A stretch of DNA of 36,832 nt from Chlorobaculum sp. Lineage in GTDB: Bacteria; Bacteroidota; Chlorobiia; Chlorobiales; Chlorobiaceae. The notes beneath the pieces are model-generated. The model did not search any database and was not told where the DNA came from. It was given only the letters and a program-made list of their open reading frames with translations. The DNA is taken from the NCBI GenBank assembly GCA_013334655.1, contig JAAXXD010000015.1:1-36832 (forward strand), read 5' to 3'. The position numbers and the translations under genes were made by a program. Below are positions 1,343 through 14,429 of this stretch, one piece after another; within the stretch, counting starts at the first letter, position 1; each line of letters opens with the position of its first letter.

Positions 1343-4300
1343 ATGAGCACTGCGTTTCAATACGATGTTTTCCTGAGCCACAACAGGGCTGACAAGCCGC
1401 GCGTGCGGGCGCTGGCCGGGTGGTTGCGTTCGGCGGAGTTGCGGGTGTGGTTCGACGAGTGGATCATCAAACCCGGCGACGACATCTACCTCGCCATTGA
1501 GCGCGGGCTGGAGACGGCGCGCGTGCAGGTGCTCTGCCTGTCGCCCGATGCGCTGGGGTCGGAGTGGGTCGCGCTCGAACGCAGCACGGTGCTTTTCCGC
1601 GACCCGACGAACAAAGGCCGGCGCTTCGTCCCGCTGCTGCTGGCTGATTGCGTTTTGCCCGACACGCTGAGGCGGTACAAGTACGTGGATTTCCGGGATG
1701 ATTCGCAAGGCGCGTTCGACGAACTGGTGGAGGCGTGCCGGGAAGAGGCGGAAGCAGTTCAGATACCTGAACCGAAAAAGGAAACGACGAAGTCGAAAGG
1801 CAAACCCAAAAAAACACGGAAGAAAGCGGAACCGATTGCAGTGTTGGAACGCAAGCTATCGGGACATACAGGTTTGGTCAAAAGCGTGGCAGTTAGCCCG
1901 GATGGAACTTGGGCAGTGTCAGGTTCTCGGGACAAGGCAGTCAAGATTTGGGACTTGGAAACCGCCCAATGCAGGGCGACACTGGAAGGGCATACGAATG
2001 ATGTGAACTCCGTTGCTATCACGCCGAATGGAAAACGGATTTTGTCGGGGTCTTTTGATGGTACAGTTCGGCTTTGGGATGTGGAATTATATCGGGAAAT
2101 GAAGAAAATTGAACATTACAGCAGCAAAGTATGGCCTGTGGTTGCATTCGGTGATAACAAACGAGCATTTTCAGGTGGTTCAGATGGTATAATTCGCTTT
2201 TGGGAGTTGGTTTCAGGTCGGTGTGAGAAGATGTTTTATAACGAAGATCGTCTTTCCTCAGTTTTTAGTATCGCTATAAATCATGCATGGACGCATGTTT
2301 TATCGGGACACGCGAATGGTGAAATTCTTTTATGGGATATTGATACAGGCCAGCGCTTAGCAAGCTTGAAAGGTCATTCAGGGGTCGTGAACTCCATGCA
2401 GGTCACGATGGATGAAAAGTATGCTGTTTCTGGATCGAACGATAATACCCTCAAAGTTTGGGACTTGGAGGCAGGAATATGCATTGGAACGCTTGAAGGC
2501 CATGTGATAGCTGTACTTTCTGTCGCCATTTCCCCTGATGGTGTTTTAATTGCCTCTACAGGTTTCACAGATGAAACGGTTCGGCTGTGGGATTTGAAAT
2601 CGGGGGTGTGTTTGCAAGTAATCAAACACAAGGGCAAGCCTTCGCCGATTTCGGTTGCATTCAGTCCCGATGGTTCGCGGCTTGTGGTTGGCACCGCAAA
2701 TGGCCTCATTTACGTTTATCGCCTCACCGGTGTCCGCGCCACTCCGTCCGCAGAAGCTACACGCCGTTACGTCAACGCCAAGGTCGTCCTGCTTGGCGAA
2801 GGGACTGTGGGGAAGACTTCGTTGGCGCATCGGTTGATCGAGGACAAATACGTCGTCAAGGATCGTACGCATGGCATGAATGTGTGGCCGCTGCCGTTGC
2901 CGCCGTCGCCGGATACCTCCATCGACCGCGAGGCGTTGCTTTGGGATTTGGCGGGGCAGGAGGATTACCGGTTGATCCACCGGCTGTTCCTCGACGAAAC
3001 GGCGCTGGCGCTGCTGCTCATCAATCCGCAGAAGGACGATCCGTTTGCCGAGGCGGGCGACTGGCTCAAGGCGCTCGATACGGCTGCCGACAATCACGAA
3101 GCGAAACGCGCCGCCGAAAAGCTGCTTCTCTTTTCGCAGATCGATGTTGGCGGCATGAAGGTCGGCAACGCCAAGATCGACCGTTTCATTCAGGAGCATG
3201 GCTTCAAAGCGTGGCTCGAAACCAGCGCCAAGAGTGGCGAGAACTGTTCGGACGGGGCCTGTGGCGGCAATCCGTCGAAGCTGAAGCAGCTCATCGCAGA
3301 GAGCATTCCGTGGGACAAACTGCCGTGGACGGCCACGCCGCGCCTGCTCGCCGAGCTGAAAAGCGCCCTCTTGAAAATGCGCGACACGGCGGACATCCGG
3401 CTGATGCGCTTTGCCGAGCTGGCACAACGGCTCGAACAGGCGTTGCCGGGCGAAAAGTTCGGCGAATCCGAGGCGCGAACGGCGGTGACGCTCTTGGCGA
3501 ACCACGGCCTCGCGCGGGCGCTAAAGTTCGGCGACCTCGTGCTGTTGCAGCCGGAGCTGCTGAACGGCTACGCCGGGGCGATCATCCGCGCGGCCCGCGC
3601 CCACCGGGACGAGATCGGCTGCGTGCTGGAAGCAAGCATCTACGATCTGGCGTTCGACTTCACCGGTGTTGACCGGTTGCCGCGACCGGACGAAGAGTTG
3701 CTCCTGCGGGCGATGGTGCAGACCTTTCTCGACCACTCCCTCTGCATCGCCGAAGAGACGCCGCTGGGTCGCCAACTGGTGTTTCCCTCGCAGTACCGGC
3801 GCGAGCGGGACATTCCAAAGGAGCCGGACGTGTTCGTCTCCTACACCTTCAACGGCGAATGGCAAACCATCTGGACGACGCTCGTGGTGCGCCTCTGGTA
3901 CGGCAACGAGTTTTCACACAGGGAGTTATGGCGCAACGCCGCCGAGTTCTCATCCAGCCGCGGCCATCTGCTCGGGCTGAAGATCAGCAACCACCAGGGC
4001 GAAGGCGAAGCGACCATCAGCCTCTTCTTCGACGTGGCGACGCCGGACGACCTGAAGGTGATCTTCATCGAATACGTGCATCGCCACCTCGCCCGCTACG
4101 GCAGCAACGTCACCCGCGACCGGCGATATATCTGCGCTTGCGGCAAACCGGTTCTGGATCACGAGCAAGTTCGCGAGCGCCTCGCGTCCGGCAAGACTTA
4201 TATCATTTGTCAGAAATGCGAAGAGAGAGTCGAACTGATCGACTTCATCGAACAGCGCCTGAAAAGCGACCCCGTCGCGAAGAAGATTCTTGCGATGGAG

Positions 4301-4780
4301 GAGCGGGCGACGCGGGAACTCGACAACCAGGCGCTGGAGCAGATTCTCATCGGCCACATGATGGCGACCTGCGGCGAGGCGAATCAGGTGTTTCGTCCCA
4401 CGATCATGTTCGATTTCGGCATCGACGGCGAAGTGGAGTTCAGGGACGACGACGGCAGGCCGAGCGGCAAGAAAATCTACGTGCAGCTCAAGAGCGGCAA
4501 TTCGTATCTGCGCAAGCGCCGGAGCGACGGCTGCGAAATATTCGACGTGAAAAACGACCGCCATCTCGACTACTGGCTCACCCAGCCGGTGGATGTCTGG
4601 CTCGTTATCCGCCAGACGGACGAGCGCACCGGCGAGCAAACCATCCGCTGGATGAACGTCACGAACTACCTGAAAAATCGTAAATACAATCAAAGCCGCC
4701 AGATCGTCTTCGACGGCGAAGCGCTCACGATGAAAGCGGTCTGGCAGCTCCGCGACAACTATTTCCCGAGGAAATATTGA
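1343..4780 (+). CDS. TIR-WD40-Roc/COR-zinc ribbon-DUF4365 multidomain protein (putative NLR-like defence protein)
   Basis: A 1145-residue cytoplasmic protein. The TIR domain (about 5-135) begins FQYDVFLSHNRAD and has SEWVALE, whose W75 and E79 match the WxxxE glutamate of TIR NADases. A Lys-rich linker (about 144-163) leads to seven WD40 blades (172-464, each ending near WDL), enough for a closed propeller. A Roc-type GTPase follows: P-loop GEGTVGKT (485-492), G3 WDLAGQEDY (D535) and SQID (598-601) in place of NKxD. Next come a COR/winged-helix-like part (about 660-920) with LVLLQPELLNGYA, a CxC/CxxC zinc ribbon (C931, C933, C956, C959) and a C-terminal DUF4365 domain (about 995-1120) with GIDGEVEF and YVQLKSG (D1028, Q1048, K1050), a PD-(D/E)xK-like signature. 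The ATG at 1343 directly precedes the TIR fold; the upstream in-frame extension has no homology-like content. The WD40 part (about 2050-2620) is much more AT-rich than the ends. Defence is inferred from architecture. Confidence 0.9.
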   Translation: MSTAFQYDVFLSHNRADKPRVRALAGWLRSAELRVWFDEWIIKPGDDIYLAIERGLETARVQVLCLSPDALGSEWVALERSTVLFRDPTNKGRRFVPLLLADCVLPDTLRRYKYVDFRDDSQGAFDELVEACREEAEAVQIPEPKKETTKSKGKPKKTRKKAEPIAVLERKLSGHTGLVKSVAVSPDGTWAVSGSRDKAVKIWDLETAQCRATLEGHTNDVNSVAITPNGKRILSGSFDGTVRLWDVELYREMKKIEHYSSKVWPVVAFGDNKRAFSGGSDGIIRFWELVSGRCEKMFYNEDRLSSVFSIAINHAWTHVLSGHANGEILLWDIDTGQRLASLKGHSGVVNSMQVTMDEKYAVSGSNDNTLKVWDLEAGICIGTLEGHVIAVLSVAISPDGVLIASTGFTDETVRLWDLKSGVCLQVIKHKGKPSPISVAFSPDGSRLVVGTANGLIYVYRLTGVRATPSAEATRRYVNAKVVLLGEGTVGKTSLAHRLIEDKYVVKDRTHGMNVWPLPLPPSPDTSIDREALLWDLAGQEDYRLIHRLFLDETALALLLINPQKDDPFAEAGDWLKALDTAADNHEAKRAAEKLLLFSQIDVGGMKVGNAKIDRFIQEHGFKAWLETSAKSGENCSDGACGGNPSKLKQLIAESIPWDKLPWTATPRLLAELKSALLKMRDTADIRLMRFAELAQRLEQALPGEKFGESEARTAVTLLANHGLARALKFGDLVLLQPELLNGYAGAIIRAARAHRDEIGCVLEASIYDLAFDFTGVDRLPRPDEELLLRAMVQTFLDHSLCIAEETPLGRQLVFPSQYRRERDIPKEPDVFVSYTFNGEWQTIWTTLVVRLWYGNEFSHRELWRNAAEFSSSRGHLLGLKISNHQGEGEATISLFFDVATPDDLKVIFIEYVHRHLARYGSNVTRDRRYICACGKPVLDHEQVRERLASGKTYIICQKCEERVELIDFIEQRLKSDPVAKKILAMEERATRELDNQALEQILIGHMMATCGEANQVFRPTIMFDFGIDGEVEFRDDDGRPSGKKIYVQLKSGNSYLRKRRSDGCEIFDVKNDRHLDYWLTQPVDVWLVIRQTDERTGEQTIRWMNVTNYLKNRKYNQSRQIVFDGEALTMKAVWQLRDNYFPRKY

Positions 4781-4792
4781 TCGTCCGCTAAT

Positions 4793-5237
4793 TTATCCGG
4801 CGCTTAACGCCTTGCGGTAGACTTCGAGGTCATGCTCCGAAAAGCAGCAGAAGATCACCTCTTCGATGCCGGATTCATCTGTGAGTATTTCTCGCACGGT
4901 CGCCACGGCGATGGCGGCGGCGAGCTTCAGCGAGTTGCGGTAGCACGAGGCGAGCAACTCCGCTTCGCCGTGGCTGCCGCCGCTCCAGACCGGGCCGACG
5001 GCGTGGATGACGTACTTCGCGGGCAGTTGGTACCCGTTCGTGATCTTCGCCTCGCCGGTGTGGCATCCGCCGAGAGCGCGGCACGCATAGAGCAGTTCCA
5101 GCCCCGCCGCCCGTTTAATCGCGCCGTCAACGCCCCCCGCCCCCCAGCAGCGACGAGTTCGCCGCATTAACGATAGCATCGACCTTGAGCGTGGTGATGT
5201 CCGCCCTGATGGCTCGAATCTTCGCTGGTTGGAACAT
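4793..5237 (-). pseudogene. Macrodomain (ADP-ribose-binding, O-acetyl-ADP-ribose deacetylase-like) protein, frameshifted and internally deleted
   Basis: The start codon at 5237 opens [35 protein letters not shown], a standard macrodomain N-terminus with the NAAN motif. The frame then breaks in a run of Cs (5133-5145 on the plus strand): one G too many on the coding strand turns the expected GGGGVDGAI into GGGGR-stop. In the next frame the protein continues [10 protein letters not shown]...[27 protein letters not shown]...CYRNSLKLA and then jumps to [12 protein letters not shown]...[18 protein letters not shown]. About 20 residues that normally carry the loop FPxISTGxYGYP, which holds the diphosphate, are missing without loss of frame. 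The frameshift could be a sequencing error in a homopolymer, but the in-frame deletion would still remove the ligand loop. It converges on the TIR gene with 12 bp between stops. Confidence 0.85.
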
Positions 5238-5301
5238 GGTATTGCTTGATTCTGTTTGCTTCCTCTCTTGTCCAGTGAGTCCACACGGCACAAGACCTCG
5301 C

Positions 5302-5460
5302 TCAAGAAACCTCTTCAAACTCGGCATCGACCACGCGGGGAATTGATTCAGCGGAATTCTGCGCGGCGCTTTTCTCCCATTCGAGGAAGGCGGTGAGGTC
5401 GTGGTTGATCGAAGCGAGCACGGCGGCGTCATCGAAGAAGCATTCCGTTTGGGCTGGTCG
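5302..5460 (-). pseudogene. 3-prime end of an unidentified truncated gene
   Basis: On the minus strand a frame without a start codon reads [23 protein letters not shown]...[14 protein letters not shown] and ends with TGA at 5304-5302. The composition is protein-like and GC-rich like the surrounding chromosome. Upstream (above about 5460) the frame hits a stop at once, so only some 50 C-terminal codons remain. The parent family is not recognised. The TGA lies 65 bp upstream of the macrodomain start, so the two could once have formed an operon. The ORF track shows this stretch in the wrong frame (5127-5432). Confidence 0.4.
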
Positions 5461-5797: not shown

Positions 5798-7093
5798 TTA
5801 CTGGTGCGCGGCGACGAGAGCGTTGTAGTTCGCGGCGACGGTTTTCTCCAGATCGGCGTCGGTGTGGACGAAGCTGGTGAACATGGCCTCGAACTGCGAC
5901 GGGGCAAGGTAGATGCCCTGGTCGAGCATCGAGTGGAAGTACTTACCGTACTTTGCCGAATCGGCGGTGATGGCGCTCTTGTAGTCCACGACCGGGGTCT
6001 CGGTGAAGAAGAGGCAGGCCATTGAGCCGACGCGGTTCTGCACGTAGTTCAGGCCGAGCTTCTCCATATTGGCCTTGAAGCCTGCTTCGAGGAACGCAGC
6101 CTTCCTTTCGAGTTCCGGATAGGGATTCTCTTCGATGAGGATCTTCAGGGTTTCGAGACCTGCGGTGAGGGCCAGCGGGTTGCCCGAGAGGGTGCCTGCC
6201 TGGTAGACCGCGCCGAGCGGAGCGACGTTCTGCATGATTTCGCGCTTGCCGCCGAATGCGCCGACCGGCAGACCGCCGCCGATGATCTTGCCCATCGTGG
6301 TGAGGTCAGGGGTGACGCCGTACAACTCCTGTGCGCCGCCGAGAGCCACGCGGAAGCCGCACATCACCTCGTCGAAAATCAGCACGATACCTTCAGCGTC
6401 GCAAAGCTCGCGAAGGGCCTGGAGGAACTCCTTCTTGGCCGGGATGACGCCGGTGTTGCCCGCGACCGGCTCGATGATGATCGCGGCGACCTCGCCCTTG
6501 TTCTCGTTGACCAGCACCTTGACCGACTCGATGTCGTTGTAGGTGGCGTTGAGCGTGTCGTTGGCGGTGCCTTTGGTGACGCCGGGGCTGTCGGGAGCGC
6601 CGAGGGTGAGCACGCCAGAGCCGGCCTTGATGAGGAAGCTGTCGCCGTGGCCGTGGTAGCAGCCTTCGAACTTGATGATTTTATCCTTGCCGGTGTAGCC
6701 GCGGGCGAGGCGGACGGCGGACATGGTGGCTTCGGTGCCGCTGTTGACCATGCGCACCATTTCGAGCGACGGCACGACCTTGCAGAGCAGCTCGGCGATC
6801 TCGATCTCGATTTCGATCGGCGTGCCGAAGCTGGTGCCGATGTTGCGGAGGGTGTATTCAATCGCGGCGGTCAGGCGGGGGTGCATGCTGCCGAGAATGA
6901 ACGGCCCCCACGATCCGACATAGTCCAGGTAGGTGTTGCCGTCAACATCGGTCATGTAAGCGCCGTTACCGGTCGCCATATAGATGGGCGTGCCGCCTAC
7001 GGATTTGAATGCGCGAACCGGGGAGTTGACGCCACCGGGGATGAACTTTTTGGCTTTTTCAAAAAGCTCGGCAGAACGGGTGAGTACAGGCAT
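5798..7093 (-). CDS. hemL: Glutamate-1-semialdehyde 2,1-aminomutase
   Basis: This 431-residue PLP enzyme moves the amino group of glutamate-1-semialdehyde to give 5-aminolevulinate, the precursor of haem and bacteriochlorophyll, by the C5 pathway. It is full length for the family. Visible motifs are FIPGGVNSPVRAF near the start, the substrate-gating region YVGSWGPFILGSMHP, the PLP-phosphate motif VNSGTEA (residues 116-122), IFDEVMCGFR (D241) and the PLP lysine in TTMGKIIGGGLPVGAFGG (K269). The start MPVLTRSAELFEKAKK is the usual HemL start. It is the second gene of a minus-strand pair with recO, 105 bp downstream of it, and ends in a hairpin terminator. A large ALA supply fits a phototroph with chlorosomes. 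Confidence 0.97.
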   Translation of the reverse strand: MPVLTRSAELFEKAKKFIPGGVNSPVRAFKSVGGTPIYMATGNGAYMTDVDGNTYLDYVGSWGPFILGSMHPRLTAAIEYTLRNIGTSFGTPIEIEIEIAELLCKVVPSLEMVRMVNSGTEATMSAVRLARGYTGKDKIIKFEGCYHGHGDSFLIKAGSGVLTLGAPDSPGVTKGTANDTLNATYNDIESVKVLVNENKGEVAAIIIEPVAGNTGVIPAKKEFLQALRELCDAEGIVLIFDEVMCGFRVALGGAQELYGVTPDLTTMGKIIGGGLPVGAFGGKREIMQNVAPLGAVYQAGTLSGNPLALTAGLETLKILIEENPYPELERKAAFLEAGFKANMEKLGLNYVQNRVGSMACLFFTETPVVDYKSAITADSAKYGKYFHSMLDQGIYLAPSQFEAMFTSFVHTDADLEKTVAANYNALVAAHQ

Positions 7094-7198
7094 GTCGAAT
7101 CGTTCGGTTTGAATTAGTCGATGAGTGATGTAATGAAATGACTGGTCAAGATAGAAAATAGATGCGAAGATTGAAAGCAGCCTTCCCGCTTGACGATC

Positions 7199-7978
7199 TC
7201 ACGCCGAGGCGAGCCGCGAGAGGATGTCGAGATGCTTGCGATGCGGCATCCGGTCGAGGTGGCGGGAGCAGTACTCCTGCAAAAGGTTGCAGACGGCGAC
7301 GACCTCGTCCGGCGGCGCTTCGGGGCAGGGTGCGTTGCCCGTGGCGGCAAGGGCGCGAATGAAGCGGTAGCGGCTAACCGGAACAGTCTGAATCGACACG
7401 TTATTGACGAAGGCCGTGCCCGGCAGGGCGAATCCGCCCGGATCGTGCACGAAGAGCAACTCGCGGAGCTTCATCTCCTCGATGCCAACGGCGAGGTCGT
7501 GGTTGCTGAAGACGCAACGGTCGAGCGAAGGCGCGAAGCCGAGCACGCCGACGAGGCGCAACAGGAACCAGGCGAGAATCGGCTGAAAATCTCGCCCCGC
7601 GTGGCAAAGCCGCCAGATTGCCGCGTGGACGATGGTGAAGAGCGGTACGTTTTTTTCTTCGTGTGTGGAGGCGTACCGCACGAGGTCGAGCACGCGGTAG
7701 AGCACGCTGAAGCGTTCGAGGTCGGGCGACTCGGCGAGCGGGCTGAGCACGAGACTGGCGTCGCTCAGGAGCTGAATGTCGCGATTGCCCTTTTTGTAGA
7801 GCACCGCGTCGATCACGTTACCCGGCGAAAAGAGCGGCCCGGTGCGGCTTTTCGCGCTTCGTCCGCCCTTGAGGATCACCGACACCTGCCCGTACTCCCT
7901 GGTCAGCAGCAGGCAGATTTTGGACTGATCCCGGTACTTGATGTCGCGGAGCACCACCGCCCGGGTTTTTACGATCAC
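7199..7978 (-). CDS. recO: DNA repair protein RecO
   Basis: A 259-residue RecO. RecO works with RecR (and RecF) to load RecA onto SSB-coated single-stranded gaps and can anneal DNA strands. The N-terminal OB-fold (about 1-80) is clear: [41 protein letters not shown], where the KGGRSAKSR stretch is the usual basic segment. The C-terminal helical half includes [19 protein letters not shown]. The four-cysteine zinc module found in some RecO proteins is not present as a clean set. The start directly opens the OB strand. It is divergent from the FmdB gene (122-bp gap) and precedes hemL on the same strand. Confidence 0.93.
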
Positions 7979-8100
7979 CGGTGAAACTTTTTTTTCAGAT
8001 TAAATATAGTTATATACAGCGTCCAACATTGCAGGGTTCACGCGACCCGAAGATACCAAAACAACATACACAGAATAGATTCCCAACGGAGGAAAAGAAT

Positions 8101-8352
8101 ATGCCAACCTATCATTACCGCTGCAACAGCTGTGGATTTGAAGAAGAGGTCTTTCAGCGCATGACCGACAACGCCCTGACTACCTGCTCCAAGTGCGGCA
8201 CCGAGTCGTACGAGCGCGTCATCAGCGCCGAAGGCGGCTTCGTGCTCAAAGGATCCGGCTTCTACAGCACCGACTACTGCGGCAGCAAATCGTCGAAAGG
8301 CTCCGAGTCTGGCGGCGGATGCGCCTCAGGTAACTGCCCTCTGGCGAAATAA
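8101..8352 (+). CDS. FmdB-family zinc ribbon protein
   Basis: An 83-residue protein that starts [21 protein letters not shown] and has a second pair TCSKCG, so two CxxC knuckles form a zinc ribbon (about residues 8-40). It continues with [15 protein letters not shown], the standard FmdB/CxxC_CxxC_SSSS signature, and ends in a Gly/Ser/Cys-rich tail [13 protein letters not shown]. The ORF track starts 40 codons earlier, but the ATG at 8101 follows a good ribosome site (CGGAGGAAAAG) and gives the family N-terminus. The function of the family is not settled; a regulatory role is commonly assumed. It is followed by a strong terminator, so it is probably monocistronic. Confidence 0.93.
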
Positions 8353-8379
8353 GCGGACGGTGATTTCATAGAACAGCAT

Positions 8380-8412
8380 AAAGCCTTCTCGACCAACGGG
8401 AAGGCTTTTTGC
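8380..8412 (+). terminator. Rho-independent terminator of the FmdB gene
   Basis: AAAGCCTTC (8380-8388) pairs with GAAGGCTTT (8400-8408), followed by TT. The loop is 11 nt. It starts 28 bp after the FmdB stop codon. Confidence 0.85.
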
Positions 8413-8449
8413 GTTGGCGGTATTGTTTTCCCCGGAGGTTGTCTCGAAA

Positions 8450-8604
8450 GCCGGGAGCGCCGAGCGCCTGCTCGGCAATGGAGCCGAAGGCTCCACAGGA
8501 TTTAGGTTCAAAGTCTTTCAGGTATCGAGAGATAACGTTAATCTGAAGTAGATAAGGGATTTAATCGCCAAAAGGATGCCGAGCAGGCGCTCGGCGCTCC
8601 CGGC
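8450..8604. repeat. Perfect 28-bp inverted repeat flanking 99 bp
   Basis: The left arm 8450-8477 starts gccgggagcgccgagcgcct and the right arm 8577-8604 is its exact reverse complement (tgccgagcaggcgctcggcg at its start). Each arm also holds an inner GC-rich inverted repeat (gccgag/ctcggc). The inner 99 bp has a small hairpin ggagccgaaggctcc and no ORF. The size and exactness suggest a dispersed element or a MITE-like unit rather than a terminator. No target-site duplication is obvious. Confidence 0.8.
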
Positions 8605-8665
8605 GTTTGAAGTAGCCCCAACGCAATGCCACGGTTTAACGACCTTTGCCTCGCAACAGTCCGAC

Positions 8666-9595
8666 TCACGGCTCGAAAGTCGGCATCTCCTTGTCCCGCA
8701 GGCGGAAGCCGGGAAGGTTTATCTCCGGATCGTTGCGCATGGCGTTCGGATACTCTTTGCCGAGCGCTCCGCCGGTGACGAGAATCCGGTCGAGCTTGCC
8801 TTCGGCGAAGATCATGCGGATTTTGTCGCCCGAGGTGAAGTTCACGCCCGAGGGCTGATTCTTGTCGTCGTAGATATGGTAGAGGCTTCGGGCGTTCCTT
8901 GTCGCCGTGACCCTCTTCAGGCGGGAGCGGTCGTCCATGTTAGCCGTCATCTGTTTGCCGGAGAGCTGGTCATAGAGCGTCGGCGATTTCGAAAGGGAGT
9001 CCCTGGCGGCAAGGTAGGCGTGACCGAAGATATGGATTTCATCCACCTTCTTTTTCCCGGCGACTTCACGCAAATGCACCCGGATCGAGTCGCCGCTGAG
9101 CTGCCGACCGCGTTGCCACGCCACCGCGTCGTTGAAAAGCCATAGCTCGTTGCGGTTCCGGTCGAAGGTCGCCCGCGCCGATTTCACCGTCAGGCTGTCG
9201 TCGCTCACGCGCCCGCGAACGTTGCCCGACAGCTCGCCGGTTTCCTGGTCGGTGTGGTACACGCCGTTGTCGGCTCGCGTTTCAACGGTTTTGTCTTTGA
9301 TGATGATATGCCCCGTAAGGTCGATTCGTTCGCTCTCGGGCCAGTCGGTTGCGCGGTCGCACTGCAAGGTTGTTTCGCCGTGCAGGAACCTGACGTTGCC
9401 GACTGCCGAGCGGTATGGTATGGTCGTCCCTGATGGGCCGGGATTTTCGCCGCCCTCAATCAGGTCGGCGTGTTCGAGTACCGTTTTCTTATTTTCCGCG
9501 GAGAGCGTATTATCAGGCAGGGATGTTCCCCACAGGGCCAGCGACAGCATCACGCGCCATGCGGTTTTTGAGATCGATTGTCGTCTGCTGGTCAT
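8666..9595 (-). CDS. OstA/LptA-like periplasmic protein
   Basis: A 309-residue exported protein of the OstA-like (LptA/LptC/LptD N-domain) beta-jellyroll group. After an N-terminal hydrophobic stretch (AWRVMLSLALWGTSLPDNTLSA) it has the typical repeats: AVGNVRFLHGETTLQCDRATDW, IDLTGHIIIKDKTVETRADNGVYHTDQETGELSGNVRGRVSDDSLTVKSARATFDRNRNELWLFNDAVAWQRGRQLSGDSIRVHLRE. These are the strand patterns of proteins that carry lipopolysaccharide across the periplasm. The ATG at 9595 precedes the signal peptide; the ORF track runs 171 codons further upstream, but that part is antisense to the epimerase-like gene. It is divergent from that gene with a 63-bp gap. LPS transport is the likely role; the precise Lpt name cannot be fixed. 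Confidence 0.8.
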   Translation of the reverse strand: MTSRRQSISKTAWRVMLSLALWGTSLPDNTLSAENKKTVLEHADLIEGGENPGPSGTTIPYRSAVGNVRFLHGETTLQCDRATDWPESERIDLTGHIIIKDKTVETRADNGVYHTDQETGELSGNVRGRVSDDSLTVKSARATFDRNRNELWLFNDAVAWQRGRQLSGDSIRVHLREVAGKKKVDEIHIFGHAYLAARDSLSKSPTLYDQLSGKQMTANMDDRSRLKRVTATRNARSLYHIYDDKNQPSGVNFTSGDKIRMIFAEGKLDRILVTGGALGKEYPNAMRNDPEINLPGFRLRDKEMPTFEP

Positions 9596-9658
9596 GCTGC
9601 CGGGTTCTCTGAGTTGTGTGTTATCGTTTCGATTTTTAATGTAATAAAGCTTTCCGGT

Positions 9659-10717
9659 GTGAAAAAAATAGTCTTGATTGCCCAGGATCGTGCGGCATTT
9701 CTCCATGTTGCCCCGCTTGTCAGTGCCTTCAGAAAAAACAGCGTGTTCCAGCCGGTGCTTGTCCGGGTGCTCACGCCCGGCAGCCGCGCCGAGCACGACA
9801 AGCTTGCCGCCGCCTTCGGCTTCGGGGACGCGCTTCGCGTCATCGAAGCCGAGCCGGACACGCCGGTTGGCGAAACCGCATCGTTCATGCTCACCTTCGA
9901 GCAAATCTTCAACGAACTCGCGCCCGATTTCGTCATCCCCGGCGGCCACGACAGCGCCAGCCTCGCCGGAGCGCTTGCCGCCGCAAAAATGGGCATCCCG
10001 GTCATCAGCCTCGACGCCGGCCTGCGCAGCTACGACCGCGCTGAAGCGAGCGAGATCACTCGCCTCGTCATCGACTCGGTGGCCGCGCTGCACTTCGTCA
10101 GCGAGCACAGCGGCGTGTACAACCTCATCAATGAGGGCTTCGCCGACGAGCGCATCCTTTTCGTCGGCAACACGGCCATCGATAGCCTCGTGACGCTGAT
10201 GGCGCAGGCCAACGCATCCAGCGTGCTCGATTCACTCTCGCTCGCCCCGAAAAAGTTCGTCACCGTCCTGCTCAAGCCGGAAAGCTCCGTAAATCGCGAA
10301 CTCTTCTGCAAAGTGCTCGAATCGCTCGCCGCCACCACGGCCGTGTTGCTGCCGGGAACCCAGTCGTCCGATGAGGCGCTGAACAGCGTTGCGGGTCTGC
10401 GGATGATCGACATGCCGGACTACATCGATATGCTGCGCCTGCTCAAGGAGTCGGCGTTCGTGCTTACCGACAGCGCCGAGTTCGAGGCTGAACTGACCGT
10501 GATGAACGTCCCCTGCCTCACCATGCGCCAGAGTACCGCGCGCCCCTCGACCGTCGAACTCGGCACCAACGTGCTGATTGCTCCCGATGAGCAGGAGATA
10601 CTCGAACGCGCCTCGGTCATCCTCTCCAGAAAAAAGAGGGAGAAAACGCTGATTCCTGAAAAATGGGACGGCGCGGCGGCCACGCGCATCGTCGAAGTGC
10701 TGGAACGGGCAGAGTGA
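9659..10717 (+). CDS. UDP-N-acetylglucosamine 2-epimerase (WecB)-like protein with altered active site
   Basis: A 352-residue GT-B-fold protein of the WecB/NeuC superfamily. The layout fits: KKIVLIAQDRAAFLHVAPLVSAF at the start, PDFVIPGGHDSASLAGALAAAKMGIPVISLDAGLRSYDRAEASEITRLVIDSVAALHFV in the middle, VGNTAIDSL, and TDSAEFEAELTVMNVPCLTMRQSTARPSTVELGTN near the end. Key positions differ from WecB: the HVEAGLR glutamate is Asp (D119), the HRREN histidine is replaced (VTVLLKPES), and SGGxQEE reads SAEFEAE. It may act on another substrate or bind without catalysis. The start is a GTG at 9659 that puts the first beta strand at the N-terminus; upstream codons (MSSAGHAAG...) look unlike the family and overlap the divergent OstA-like gene. 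No clear ribosome site is seen. Confidence 0.75.
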   Translation: MKKIVLIAQDRAAFLHVAPLVSAFRKNSVFQPVLVRVLTPGSRAEHDKLAAAFGFGDALRVIEAEPDTPVGETASFMLTFEQIFNELAPDFVIPGGHDSASLAGALAAAKMGIPVISLDAGLRSYDRAEASEITRLVIDSVAALHFVSEHSGVYNLINEGFADERILFVGNTAIDSLVTLMAQANASSVLDSLSLAPKKFVTVLLKPESSVNRELFCKVLESLAATTAVLLPGTQSSDEALNSVAGLRMIDMPDYIDMLRLLKESAFVLTDSAEFEAELTVMNVPCLTMRQSTARPSTVELGTNVLIAPDEQEILERASVILSRKKREKTLIPEKWDGAAATRIVEVLERAE

Positions 10718-10809: not shown

Positions 10810-10954
10810 ATGTAACGGTTCAAGCTGACAGATTACTTCTCAAATCTCGATTGTTTCCTGAGGCTCATTTCGGCCAGCCGTTTCAAACCGCCGGGCTGGT
10901 CAGGAAGGAATCGATGCAATCAACGACAACCTGTACGGAAACATCATTGCACCT

Positions 10955-11683
10955 ATGGACGATACCCATACTCACGACCCGTACGACCTCAGCCGGATCA
11001 TTTCGCAAGGCTGGAGGCTTTATCGCTTCAACTTCCTTGCCATTGCGTCGGCCGTTCTGCTGGTTTCCGTTCCGGTAAACGCCGCGTTGTCGGTCATTCC
11101 GCCATACTTCATCTCTGGGCAAGGCGCTTACGATGCGTGGATCATCCGGCTGCTCTCCGCGGCAAAGCTGCTCGTGTTCAACGGCCTGATTGCCATGGCC
11201 GTGGCCAGAATCATCGACGCATCGTCAAAGGGAGCCACCATCACAGGGAGCGCCGCTCTTCGTCACGCCCTGAGTCGCATGGGCGCGGCCCTTTCCCTTG
11301 GGCCGATTCTGGCGCTTTTCGCCATCGGACTGCTTTTACTTATGCTCGTGCCCCGTCTGGGCGAAGCGGTCTATTACGCCATCTTCATCTTCTACTTCTT
11401 TGCCGTATCGCTACGCAACTGTTCCGGGATGGCGGCCATCGACTATTCCCGGGCGCTTTTCAAGCAACAGTTTGGCCAGGTATTCTGGTGCCAGTTCGTC
11501 TTTTTCCTCTTCTCGGCAGTCTTTACCGCCGGAATGCTACCGATCCTCTTGGTCTTTCCGCGAATCCCGGCAGTCGCCATCGCCTTCAACGCAATCCTCG
11601 ATCTCTTCCTTGCCTACCCCTTCACGATGTCAACCCTGTTTTTTCTGGAACTCGATGCGAATGACGGGGTTGATAGATGCTAA
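10955..11683 (+). CDS. Integral membrane protein of unknown function
   Basis: A 242-residue protein with about six hydrophobic segments: FNFLAIASAVLLVSVPVNAAL (about 28-48), one around residues 65-85, LGPILALFAIGLLLLMLV (about 112-130), AVYYAIFIFYFFAVSL (about 137-152), QVFWCQFVFFLFSAVFTAGML (about 175-195) and one near the C-terminus. The N-terminus MDDTHTHDPYDLSRIISQGWRLYRFNF, a short polar stretch then W-x-LY-x-xNF, resembles membrane proteins with a glycerophosphodiesterase-type membrane domain, but no catalytic residues are seen. The start is the ATG at 10955; no strong ribosome site precedes it. It stands alone between the epimerase-like gene and the transposase remnant. Confidence 0.8.
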   Translation: MDDTHTHDPYDLSRIISQGWRLYRFNFLAIASAVLLVSVPVNAALSVIPPYFISGQGAYDAWIIRLLSAAKLLVFNGLIAMAVARIIDASSKGATITGSAALRHALSRMGAALSLGPILALFAIGLLLLMLVPRLGEAVYYAIFIFYFFAVSLRNCSGMAAIDYSRALFKQQFGQVFWCQFVFFLFSAVFTAGMLPILLVFPRIPAVAIAFNAILDLFLAYPFTMSTLFFLELDANDGVDRC

Positions 11684-11838
11684 CTTCATGATAGGTAATA
11701 TCTTAAAGGGATAGGTGCTGAATGCTGTTTCGGCGTTTTGTGGGTTTTCGCAAGAAAATATCAGAAAACGTTTTCTTACAACGCAGTTCCAGAAACGAAC
11801 AAACGAGAAATCCCTGTATCTGTCAATAGGAATGTTAG

Positions 11839-12462
11839 TTAAGGGATTTTGAGAGGTTCTTTCTTGTGACTTCTTCGATGTTTCTGGCTTCGAGTACCTC
11901 CGGCAGTCTTGCCTCCATCGCCTCCAGCAGGGCTTGGGCGGCTTGCGTCGGTTCCGGGATTTTCAGGCAGCTCGTTTCGTTGAGCGTGACGATCATGCTG
12001 CTGATCGCTCTGAGTTCGTCGATGCCTTCCGGTACTGCGCATTCAGCGTATTATCAGTATTTTTCGATCAGTCGCTCCATCTTGCAGGCCAGCATCACGC
12101 TGAACACATGGCCGCGTGTGCTGGCTTGGTTGCGCACTCAGACCACCGGCCTGATCTCCAGATGCCCCTGCTTGAAAGGTGCGAAACGCTCGCGCCAAGT
12201 TGGCCAGATATTTGTACCGGTTGCGCAGCTCTTCCGCCGAAAGTGTCTGCTTTTTTACGCCGCTCCTGATGACGTAATAGCCGTCAAGCAACGCTTTTTG
12301 CTGCAGGGCCAGCCTGATCGCCTCGATCTCGGCAAACGAGCAGTGCGACAAACTGGCGATGGTGCGATTCTTGACCTTGCCATCTTCCCGATAGGACTCG
12401 CGAAGCAGGTGCCGCTGGTAGGTCTTGCCGTTGATGGCGGTTTTGCTTGAGTCGAGATACAT
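11839..12462 (-). pseudogene. IS1634-type transposase remnant (internal deletion, frameshift, stops)
   Basis: The N-terminus MYLDSSKTAINGKTYQRHLLRESYREDGKVKNRTIASLSHCSFAEIEAIRLAL is typical of IS1634-family (IS4-like DDE) transposases. It jumps directly to the C-terminal part DGYYVIRSGVKKQTLSAEELRNRYKYLANLARAFRTFQAG, so the central part with most of the DDE active site is gone. After QAG an extra G shifts the frame; the next frame reads HLEIRPVV-stop-VRNQASTRGHVFSVMLACKMERLIEKY-stop and then VPEGIDELRAISSMIVTLNETSCLKIPEPTQAAQALLEAMEARLPEVLEARNIEEVTRKNLSKSLN with a natural TAA at 11841-11839. Two in-frame stops, one frameshift and a large deletion show that it is dead. Terminal inverted repeats were not identified. 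Confidence 0.85.
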
Positions 12463-12798
12463 GGTGACGGCGAGACGGGTTTATACAATGCTGTGCTATA
12501 TGCAATATTGCCATGATACGCTAATGATTAGTGACTATATGCGTGGCGGCATTTATCAGATAAGTGACGGTATATCTATTGCTTCTAAAATGAAGATGCC
12601 GTTTTTTTATAATGAGAGTGAATACAGTGTACTGAAGGGTGCTGTCGCAAAGTCGCGAAAGGCAACATGGAGAGGCAATGCCGACAGAAACGCTCCCATA
12701 CACCGGCACGTTAAATCCTCGGCGTTTGTTATATTTGCGGTTTGTGCCCTGCCCGATGGGTGGGTGACGCCATATTTTTCAAACTCAGAGTCCGAACG
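12463..12798. other. AT-rich intergenic region upstream of glyS
   Basis: This 336-bp stretch separates the transposase start from the glycyl-tRNA synthetase gene. It is noticeably more AT-rich than its surroundings between about 12485 and 12620, as expected for sequence left behind by an insertion element. The phrase gctgtcgcaaagtcgcgaaaggc near 12642 could be a worn IS end but has no partner that I can find. The track ORF at 12425-12802 has no protein-like features. A promoter-like TATATTTG lies at 12730. Confidence 0.5.
12730..12737 (+). promoter_or_regulatory. TAnnTTTG-like -7 motif upstream of glyS
   Basis: TATATTTG lies 61 bp before the glyS ATG. TAnnTTTG is the -7 consensus of the housekeeping sigma factor in the related Bacteroidetes; its use in Chlorobi is assumed here. 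No matching upstream TTTG box at the right distance is clear. Confidence 0.3.
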
Positions 12799-14268
12799 AT
12801 GAGCAATTCCGATCAGTCGCGGGTGCAGACGCAGAGTCTGTCGCCCGATAAGGTGATGCATAAACTGGTTTCGCTGGCAAAGAGGCGAGGCTTCATTTTC
12901 CCGTCGTCCGAAATATACGGCGGCTTGTCGTCGTGCTTCGATTACGGCCCGCTTGGCAGCGAGATGAAGAAGAATATCAAGGATTTGTGGTGGAACTCGA
13001 TGACGCGCCGCCACCAGAATATCGTGGGCATCGATGCGTCGATCATGATGAATCCGACCGTGTGGGAGGCTTCGGGCCATGTGGCGAGCTTCAACGATCC
13101 GATGATCGACGACCGGACGACCAAGCGCCGTTACCGCGCCGACCACCTGATCGAGAACCATATCGGCAAGCTCGTGCGCGATGGCAAGGAGGCCGATGCC
13201 GCCGCTCTCAAGGTTGCCTACGAGGCCGCCGCCGGTACGGAAGACCCGAATCGCACGCTTTATAATATCATTATCGAAGCGGGAATCAAGGCTCCCGATA
13301 CCGGTTCGGCTGACTGGACGGAGGTTCGGCAGTTCAACCTGATGTTCCAGTGCAACATGGGCGCTGTGGCCGAGTCGGCGGGCGTGGTCTACCTGCGTCC
13401 CGAAACCGCGCAGGGTATCTTCGTGAACTTCCACAACGTTCGCGAGTCGTCGCGCATGAAGGTGCCGTTCGGCATCGCGCAGATCGGCAAGGCGTTCCGC
13501 AACGAAATCGTCAAGGGCAACTTCATCTTCCGCATGGTGGAGTTCGAGCAGATGGAGATGCAGTATTTCCTCAAGCCGGGCACGCAGCTCGAAGCGTTCG
13601 AGGCGTGGCGCGAGGAGCGCTTCCGCTGGTACCACGAAACGCTCGGCGTGACGAAGGAGAAGCTTCACTGGTACAAGCACGACAAGCTGGCCCACTACGC
13701 CGACCTGGCGTACGACATCAAGTTCGAGTTTCCGTTCGGCATCGAGGAGATCGAGGGCATCCACTCGCGCACCGATTTCGACCTCAGCCAGCATCAGCAG
13801 TACTCCGGCAAGAGCATGGAGTATATCGACCAGACCACCAACGAGCGCTTCATTCCCTACGTGGTGGAGACTTCGTCGGGCTGCGACCGCACCTTCCTCG
13901 CGCTGCTTTCGGACGCCTATCAGGAGGATGTGGTCGATGGCGAGCCGCGCGTGATGCTGAAGCTCGCGCCGAGGGTCGCGCCGGTGAAGGCCGCCGTGCT
14001 GCCGCTGATGAAAAAGGGCGAGATGGGCGAAAAGGCAGACAGGCTCTGCCGCGACCTCTCGGAGCACTTCATGGTGCAGTACGACGACGCCGCGTCCATC
14101 GGCAAACGCTACCGCCGCCAGGACGAGATCGGCACGCCCTTCTGCTTCACGGTGGATCACCAGACGCTCGAAGATGGCACGATCACCGTGCGCTACCGCG
14201 ACACCGCCGCGCAGGAGCGGATCGATATGTCGAAAGCCGCTGAGTTCCTGGCTGCAAAGCTGGTTTAA
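12799..14268 (+). CDS. glyS: Glycine--tRNA ligase (dimeric, class II)
   Basis: A 489-residue alpha2-type glycyl-tRNA synthetase, the form shared with archaea and eukaryotes, not the alpha2beta2 form of E. coli. Class II landmarks are visible: SCFDYGPLGSEMKKNIKDLWW (46-65), YLRPETAQGIFVNF (198-211), motif 2 FRNEIVKGNFIFRMVEFEQMEMQYF (233-257), motif 3 SSGCDRTFLALLSDAY (359-374), and an anticodon-binding domain from about 385 (LKLAPRVAPVKAAVLPL) to the end. It charges tRNA-Gly in the cytoplasm. The ORF track adds 19 upstream codons; the ATG at 12799 gives the usual short polar N-terminus before the first helix. It is flanked by repeat-containing gaps and is probably transcribed alone. Confidence 0.96.
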   Translation: MSNSDQSRVQTQSLSPDKVMHKLVSLAKRRGFIFPSSEIYGGLSSCFDYGPLGSEMKKNIKDLWWNSMTRRHQNIVGIDASIMMNPTVWEASGHVASFNDPMIDDRTTKRRYRADHLIENHIGKLVRDGKEADAAALKVAYEAAAGTEDPNRTLYNIIIEAGIKAPDTGSADWTEVRQFNLMFQCNMGAVAESAGVVYLRPETAQGIFVNFHNVRESSRMKVPFGIAQIGKAFRNEIVKGNFIFRMVEFEQMEMQYFLKPGTQLEAFEAWREERFRWYHETLGVTKEKLHWYKHDKLAHYADLAYDIKFEFPFGIEEIEGIHSRTDFDLSQHQQYSGKSMEYIDQTTNERFIPYVVETSSGCDRTFLALLSDAYQEDVVDGEPRVMLKLAPRVAPVKAAVLPLMKKGEMGEKADRLCRDLSEHFMVQYDDAASIGKRYRRQDEIGTPFCFTVDHQTLEDGTITVRYRDTAAQERIDMSKAAEFLAAKLV

Positions 14269-14307
14269 CTATTTTGAGGCTGAGACAAGTCGAGTTTTGC
14301 TTTGATT

Positions 14308-14429
14308 GTCATTCTGAACGAAGTGAAGAATCCAGTTCTTTTTTGAGCAGCACCATATTTGAATGATCTGAAATACTTTACGTGACTATTCTGGATTCTT
14401 CGCCCGACTGCGTCGGACTCAGAATGACA
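14308..14429. repeat. Dispersed inverted repeat (CATTCTGAACGAAGTGAAGAATCC type)
   Basis: The left arm gtcattctgaacgaagtgaagaatcca (14308-14334) is mirrored on the right by ctggattcttcgcccgactgcgtcggactcagaatgac (14391-14428). The outer 7-8 bp and the inner ggattcttc are complementary; the middle is diverged. The motif is a familiar scattered intergenic repeat in green sulfur and other bacteria. It lies between glyS and bchP, in the 253-bp gap, and holds no ORF. Confidence 0.65.

Follow-up and report, generated by a model that had tools for sequence, protein, structure and literature searches.

A Roco-type protein of Chlorobaculum with a hypervariable, exchanged WD40 propeller and predicted effectors at both ends: a candidate NLR-like receptor

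Comparison of a Chlorobaculum gene with its closest relatives indicated that the WD40 propeller of the encoded protein is a hypervariable, exchanged cassette amid conserved modules, as one would expect of an immune receptor. The gene occupies positions 1343..4780 (+ strand) of the window, by which we mean the whole analysed stretch of 36,832 nucleotides, equal to the entire contig C115 of a 2.43-Mb genome bin (G000, 84.5% complete), and its product is a single chain of 1145 residues with the order TIR-WD40-Roc-COR-zinc ribbon-DUF4365. We put at roughly 70% the probability that this protein is a single-chain intracellular NLR-like abortive-infection receptor with a Roco switch and two predicted effectors, its part in immunity being what we infer. 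The chances are about even for the fuller proposal of a bacterial Roco-type receptor whose WD40 propeller is exchanged as one unit through recombination and has diversified in the in-blade register of fungal NLR propellers, with the Ras-type switch and the two end effectors, a NADase and a nuclease, kept fixed. The diversity of the propeller could also serve some other recognition role.

The extent of the gene was established from the open reading frame, Pfam searches and orthologues (at 81, 77, 66 and 65%), to which the start methionine of the frame is common (MSTAFQYDVFLS). Pfam searches with the 1145-residue protein detected TIR_2 (E 1.5e-28), Roc (PF08477, E 1.1e-16) and DUF4365 (PF14280, E 1.1e-20), and the motifs GEGTVGKT, WDLAGQE, CxC and CxxC were located at residues 485, 534, 931 and 956, respectively. 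The preliminary description of this DNA had read the frame as a TIR domain with a likely NADase glutamate, a seven-bladed WD40 propeller, a Roc-type GTPase with intact P-loop and WDLAGQE, a COR-like region, a CxC/CxxC zinc ribbon and a C-terminal DUF4365 domain with a D...QxK signature; this order was borne out by Pfam, fold matches and homologues, and E79, K491 and K1050 were each found at the position it had given. All modules lay in one open frame in 18 of the 27 aligned homologues and the catalytic residues were invariant wherever the respective domain is present, which argues that the architecture did not come about by chance. In the residue counts given below, members missing from the alignment correspond to truncated or TIR-less rows.

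The propeller (residues 164–461; 1832..2725, +), the putative sensor, comprises seven blades according to both manual tracing and its fold (TM-score 0.95 to 5yzv), five WD40 repeats being called by Pfam. It is preceded by a variable linker (residues 133–163; 1739..1831, +) with 13–35% identity among orthologues, in which the exchanged segment begins (edge near residue 130). When the window gene was compared with the two relatives nearest to it, from the genomes G010 and G014, identities of 86–90% in TIR, 95–97% in Roc, 95–97% in COR and 88–89% in DUF4365 were observed with dS of about 0.2–0.6. The propellers were 49–51% identical in these comparisons (45–51% over the whole set), with a saturated dS of approximately 3. 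For G000 and G010, the values were 90% (TIR), 95% (Roc), 97% (COR) and 89% (DUF4365), with dS of 0.19–0.36, as against 51% and a dS of 3.2 in the propeller, and the comparison of G000 with G014 likewise showed conserved modules around a divergent propeller. In 30-codon windows, the drop in identity started near residue 130 and stopped near residue 470. Since amino-acid selection alone cannot saturate the synonymous sites of one segment, propeller and linker were most likely replaced via recombination with a diverged source. The propeller tree of the Chlorobi trio was star-like and did not significantly reject a single clade (p 0.21), so that the replacement claim is founded on dS and the sharp edges, not on topology. 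No match of at least 60 nt above 85%, as a recent blade transfer would leave at the DNA level, was detected between the members compared. Many family members are metagenome bins (MAGs). In Streptomyces isolates belonging to the sister clade, the cores were 98–99% identical and the N-terminal parts 62–69%, with an N-terminal dN/dS about 10 times that of the core, a trend of the same direction as in Chlorobi and milder. As a separate observation, Chlorobium sp. L227-S-6D (locus L058) carries tandem full-length copies at 6615-10049 and 10830-14315 that differ in propeller and zinc ribbon and are nearly the same in the rest.

The zinc ribbon (residues 926–972; 4118..4258, +), anticipated from its CxC/CxxC pattern, retains Cys931, Cys933, Cys956 and Cys959 in 27 of 27 aligned family members. 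Residues of about 935–985 constitute a second, smaller exchanged segment, with 70% identity and saturated dS between the window gene and G014 as compared with 88–97% identity in the flanking modules. At least two sequence types of the ribbon (residues 935–985 of the window protein, 4145..4297), CGKPV... and CGRPFKDLELIRELL..., were found scattered over the tree (second copy of L058, L064, L067).

Within the blades, the variation was concentrated on the top face. As a mean over the six alignable blades, the in-blade positions 13, 14, 15, 17, 33 and 35 displayed an entropy of 2.81 bits, 2.08 times the value of 1.35 seen elsewhere. At the same positions, a control set of WD40 orthologues from the same Chlorobi genomes gave 0.31 versus 0.59 (ratio 0.52); being more conserved there than elsewhere, the control protein indicates that top-face variability is not general to propellers. 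In pairs with moderately different propellers, the differences were concentrated at these six positions with odds ratios of 2.7–10.5. The register consists of variable positions 15 and 17 flanking the conserved 16 and variable 33 and 35 flanking the conserved 34, with 16 residues between 17 and 33. In the repeats of fungal HET-D/E, the positively selected codons are 7/9 and 25/27 around 8 and 26, on the top, binding face (PMC1805685), and the variable register of the window family equals this positively selected register.

At the N-terminal end, the TIR domain (residues 6–132; 1358..1738, +), delimited by the Pfam TIR_2 match and PDB matches, had as its closest solved structures PdTIR (3h16), BtTIR and the AbTIR NAD+ hydrolase. 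Glu79 aligned with the conserved glutamate of the W..yE motif in all three, which we take to be the catalytic residue of TIR NADases, and was invariant in the 21 of 21 aligned family members having the domain. With this glutamate in the WxxxE helix, the domain is of the bacterial NADase type, and NAD+ hydrolysis is predicted for it. The whole-protein model was only fair (pLDDT 70), with a low-confidence TIR part, and was used for the propeller alone.

At the opposite end, the DUF4365 domain (residues 985–1145; 4295..4777, +), supported by Pfam, matched the DUF4365 protein 9qbq in the PDB (E 4.4e-5) with the QxK motif aligned, and D1028, E1030, E1032, Q1048 and K1050 were invariant in 26 of 26 aligned members. 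The domain thus shows the PD-(D/E)XK-like core with QxK of the nuclease family, and nuclease activity is predicted. A characterized DUF4365-APAZ protein was reported to be a QxK DNase, with Q and K proposed as active-site residues, and its inactive mutant was made by changing both (TmuRE Q62A/K64A) (PMC10810196). Both effector domains stay intact across a broad horizontal spread.

Between the putative sensor and the nuclease-like end lies the switch. The Roc domain (residues 476–660; 2768..3322, +), assigned by Pfam and fold, keeps the GTP-binding motifs GxxxxGKT (G1, GEGTVGKT) and WDLAGQE (G3) intact, K491 being present in 26 of 26 aligned members and WD.AGQE invariant, and a GTPase function is predicted. 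Pfam returned no match in the stretch between Roc and DUF4365 of the window protein, and COR-B was weakly detected in one of 77 homologues. Meanwhile, an AlphaFold2 model of the Roc-COR core built from 77 homologues (pLDDT 87, pTM 0.83) had as its best PDB matches Chlorobium tepidum RocCOR 3dpu (E 6.9e-20), LRR-Roc-COR 6hlu, LRRK2 and LRRK1, all spanning the full Roc-COR-A-COR-B length. Based on these matches, what had been called a COR-like region is a genuine COR-A (residues 661–824; 3323..3814, +) and, from the same alignments, COR-B (residues 825–925; 3815..4117, +), followed by the four-Cys ribbon. Roc is directly followed by COR-A and COR-B, which places the protein among the Roco proteins. 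Since its switch is a Ras-type Roc GTPase in place of the NACHT or NB-ARC ATPase of NLR/STAND proteins, the window protein would work like an NLR but is not one.

The core is shared by 26 relatives at 61–95% identity from about nine phyla, including Chlorobiota, Pseudomonadota, Thermodesulfobacteriota, Acidobacteriota, Verrucomicrobiota, Planctomycetota, Eiseniibacteriota, Aminicenantes and one archaeal bin; several are from metagenome bins and may be misbinned, and Magnetospirillum UT-4 is listed without a MAG label. The near relatives of the genome bin itself are Chlorobiaceae. In the core tree, a DUF4365 clade (27 proteins) was cleanly split from a clade of 50 WD40-Roc-COR-ribbon proteins, whose C-terminal parts were TIR in 10 of the 10 sampled. 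The Chlorobi members of the DUF4365 clade stood at two places, one of them among Geobacteraceae, indicating transfer, and from its distribution the gene moves horizontally on its own. Two members from Aminicenantes, placed next to the deep fork, lack the N-terminal TIR, so that the dual-effector form probably arose by TIR joining a DUF4365 form, or that TIR was lost in Aminicenantes. Within the same genus and family, the whole protein was found in four of the 36 relatives searched and only remnants in others, a patchy presence that fits the turnover of an accessory gene.

Several related genes were recorded besides. L070:1007-3514 encodes a family member in which TIR is fused directly to Roc without a propeller. 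Within G000, a second-copy remnant (L044:5958-6545, contig C78) has kept a DUF4365 end that looks intact and is 77% identical, the remainder of that copy having decayed, and L049:1018-4320 (C59) is an LRR-Roc-COR protein with a different C-terminal region, resembling the AP-GTPase architecture of 2021. The end of contig C35 (L003) and the start of C122 (L045) probably hold the halves of one WD40-Roc-COR-ribbon-TIR-TIR gene, the first of whose two TIR-like domains looks degenerate.

The preliminary description had also proposed a link of the homologues to defence islands. No such enrichment was found, the 109 neighbouring genes in 27 loci being mostly housekeeping, and among the 25 PADLOC families listed, none matched more than one neighbour. 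No copy was detected in phage records and viral contigs at the sensitivity used, and no plasmid record covered 80% of the query, the plasmid matches being WD40-type and distant ones only. Downstream of hemL, no simple empty site could be defined, as 21 relatives without the gene there had other sequence. Directly beside the TIR protein gene, a decayed macro-domain gene (4793-5305, − strand; of ADP-ribose-binding type by eye) looks frameshifted and shortened; it was absent beside hemL in 21 relatives. Of the earlier reading as an NLR-like defence system with two effectors, the anatomy stood, as given by the folds, the invariant active sites and the diversifying propeller; the link to defence islands did not, and immunity is the part that we infer.

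In the proposed mechanism, the top face of the propeller, judging from its variability, would bind a molecule of the invader or a host molecule that the invader has altered, and ligand binding would shift the GTP state or the assembly of the Roc-COR module, as its family suggests. This change would release the N-terminal TIR domain for NAD+ cleavage, as implied by fold and invariant Glu79, and the C-terminal DUF4365 nuclease, as implied by fold and the invariant D/E/QxK site, for cutting nucleic acid. Cleavage of NAD+ and nucleic acid may then lead to cell death or growth arrest, protecting kin. With switch and effectors fixed, the observed pattern of recombinational cassette replacement and ligand-facing diversification would serve to renew specificity.

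Self/non-self recognition of kin or plasmids, in which the propeller would recognize a cellular partner that is polymorphic, in the way HET-C is recognized by HET-E, and a mismatch would result in killing or arrest, is doubtful as a substitute for phage defence: the propeller is hypervariable in the same register as those of fungal allorecognition, cassettes are exchanged between close relatives and the loci lie outside defence islands, but lone-gene horizontal spread across many phyla with no constant partner fits a portable invader sensor better. WD40 and Roc-COR proteins frequently act as scaffolds, and TIR domains can serve as adaptors. It is nevertheless quite unlikely that TIR and DUF4365 are non-catalytic binding or adaptor modules on a propeller that assembles signalling complexes, given that the invariance of Glu79 and of the five DUF4365 residues is hard to explain without catalysis and that the part of the propeller that varies most is not where a conserved partner surface would be expected. 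That the propeller differences are artefactual or neutral, produced by short-read misassembly of repeats or by unequal recombination among WD40 units that is neutral and free of selection, is extremely improbable: most members are MAGs, and WD40 repeats are prone to recombination and difficult to assemble, as are those of fungal alleles (PMC12222747), but the reading frames remain open, the variation is focused at six ligand-facing positions unlike in the control family, and the Streptomyces isolate genomes show the same direction.

If the receptor reading is true, a Roco receptor with a swappable propeller would give bacteria an equivalent of an NLR whose recognition part can be exchanged, and hypervariable WD40 recognition, known in fungal allorecognition, would occur in bacteria as well, there linked to a GTPase and not to a STAND ATPase. 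Bacterial Roco proteins are related to LRRK2 and DAPK. The family would allow their role to be tested directly, being a portable single gene that comes with a natural series of sensor alleles while switch and effectors hardly vary.

Among known systems, the closest are the AP-GTPase (Roc)-COR proteins, which Kaur et al. 2021 (PMC8195603) predicted to be prokaryotic counter-invader systems; their leucine-rich repeats evolve rapidly, and their C-terminal effectors are of at least 24 types. They share with the window family the Roc-COR switch, an N-terminal repeat sensor, a variable C-terminal effector including TIR, and several paralogues per genome. Their definition by fast-evolving N-terminal repeats and variable C-terminal effectors applies to the window family, in which the propeller is far less conserved than the core and DUF4365 and TIR clades occur; the repeats are WD40 in place of leucine-rich, a zinc ribbon follows COR-B, effectors are at both ends and the C-terminal one is DUF4365. 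Sensor cassette exchange, seen in the window family, is not described in the passages of that account consulted. Since such conflict proteins were already predicted in 2021, the window protein is a variant and not an unknown kind. The literature searched, covering few subscription journals and preprints, does not describe the full domain order, nor does it report bacterial Roco proteins in phage defence.

The fungal HET-D/HET-E (HNWD) NLRs have in common a WD40 sensor in which hypervariable pairs flank conserved positions in the d-a loop and b-c turn with identical spacing (PMC1805685), but they use a NACHT STAND ATPase and a HET domain where the window family has Roc-COR, TIR and DUF4365, and their near-identical repeats undergo concerted evolution, in contrast to whole-cassette replacement. 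Chlorobium tepidum Roco and LRRK2/LRRK1 share the Roc-COR-A-COR-B fold, with LRR (and kinase) partners and without TIR, zinc ribbon or nuclease. The SPARDA and DUF4365-APAZ partners of short Argonautes share the DUF4365 nuclease with QxK, and a double-effector APAZ protein with TIR and REase reported among such partners gives TIR plus nuclease on one protein a precedent (PMC10810196); their sensor is a guide-RNA Argonaute with no GTPase, as opposed to propeller and Roc. The DGR-diversified bacterial conflict sensors (PMC10907252) are likewise conflict proteins with a diversified sensor domain, in their case a C-type lectin mutated by a retroelement, whereas the window family relies on WD40 replacement and point diversification, and no reverse transcriptase was seen among the open reading frames read for it. 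As read from the sequences, the window family departs from the known kind in its WD40 sensor, its zinc ribbon and a predicted effector at each end, and in that exchange of the sensor and diversification of its top face are directly evidenced.
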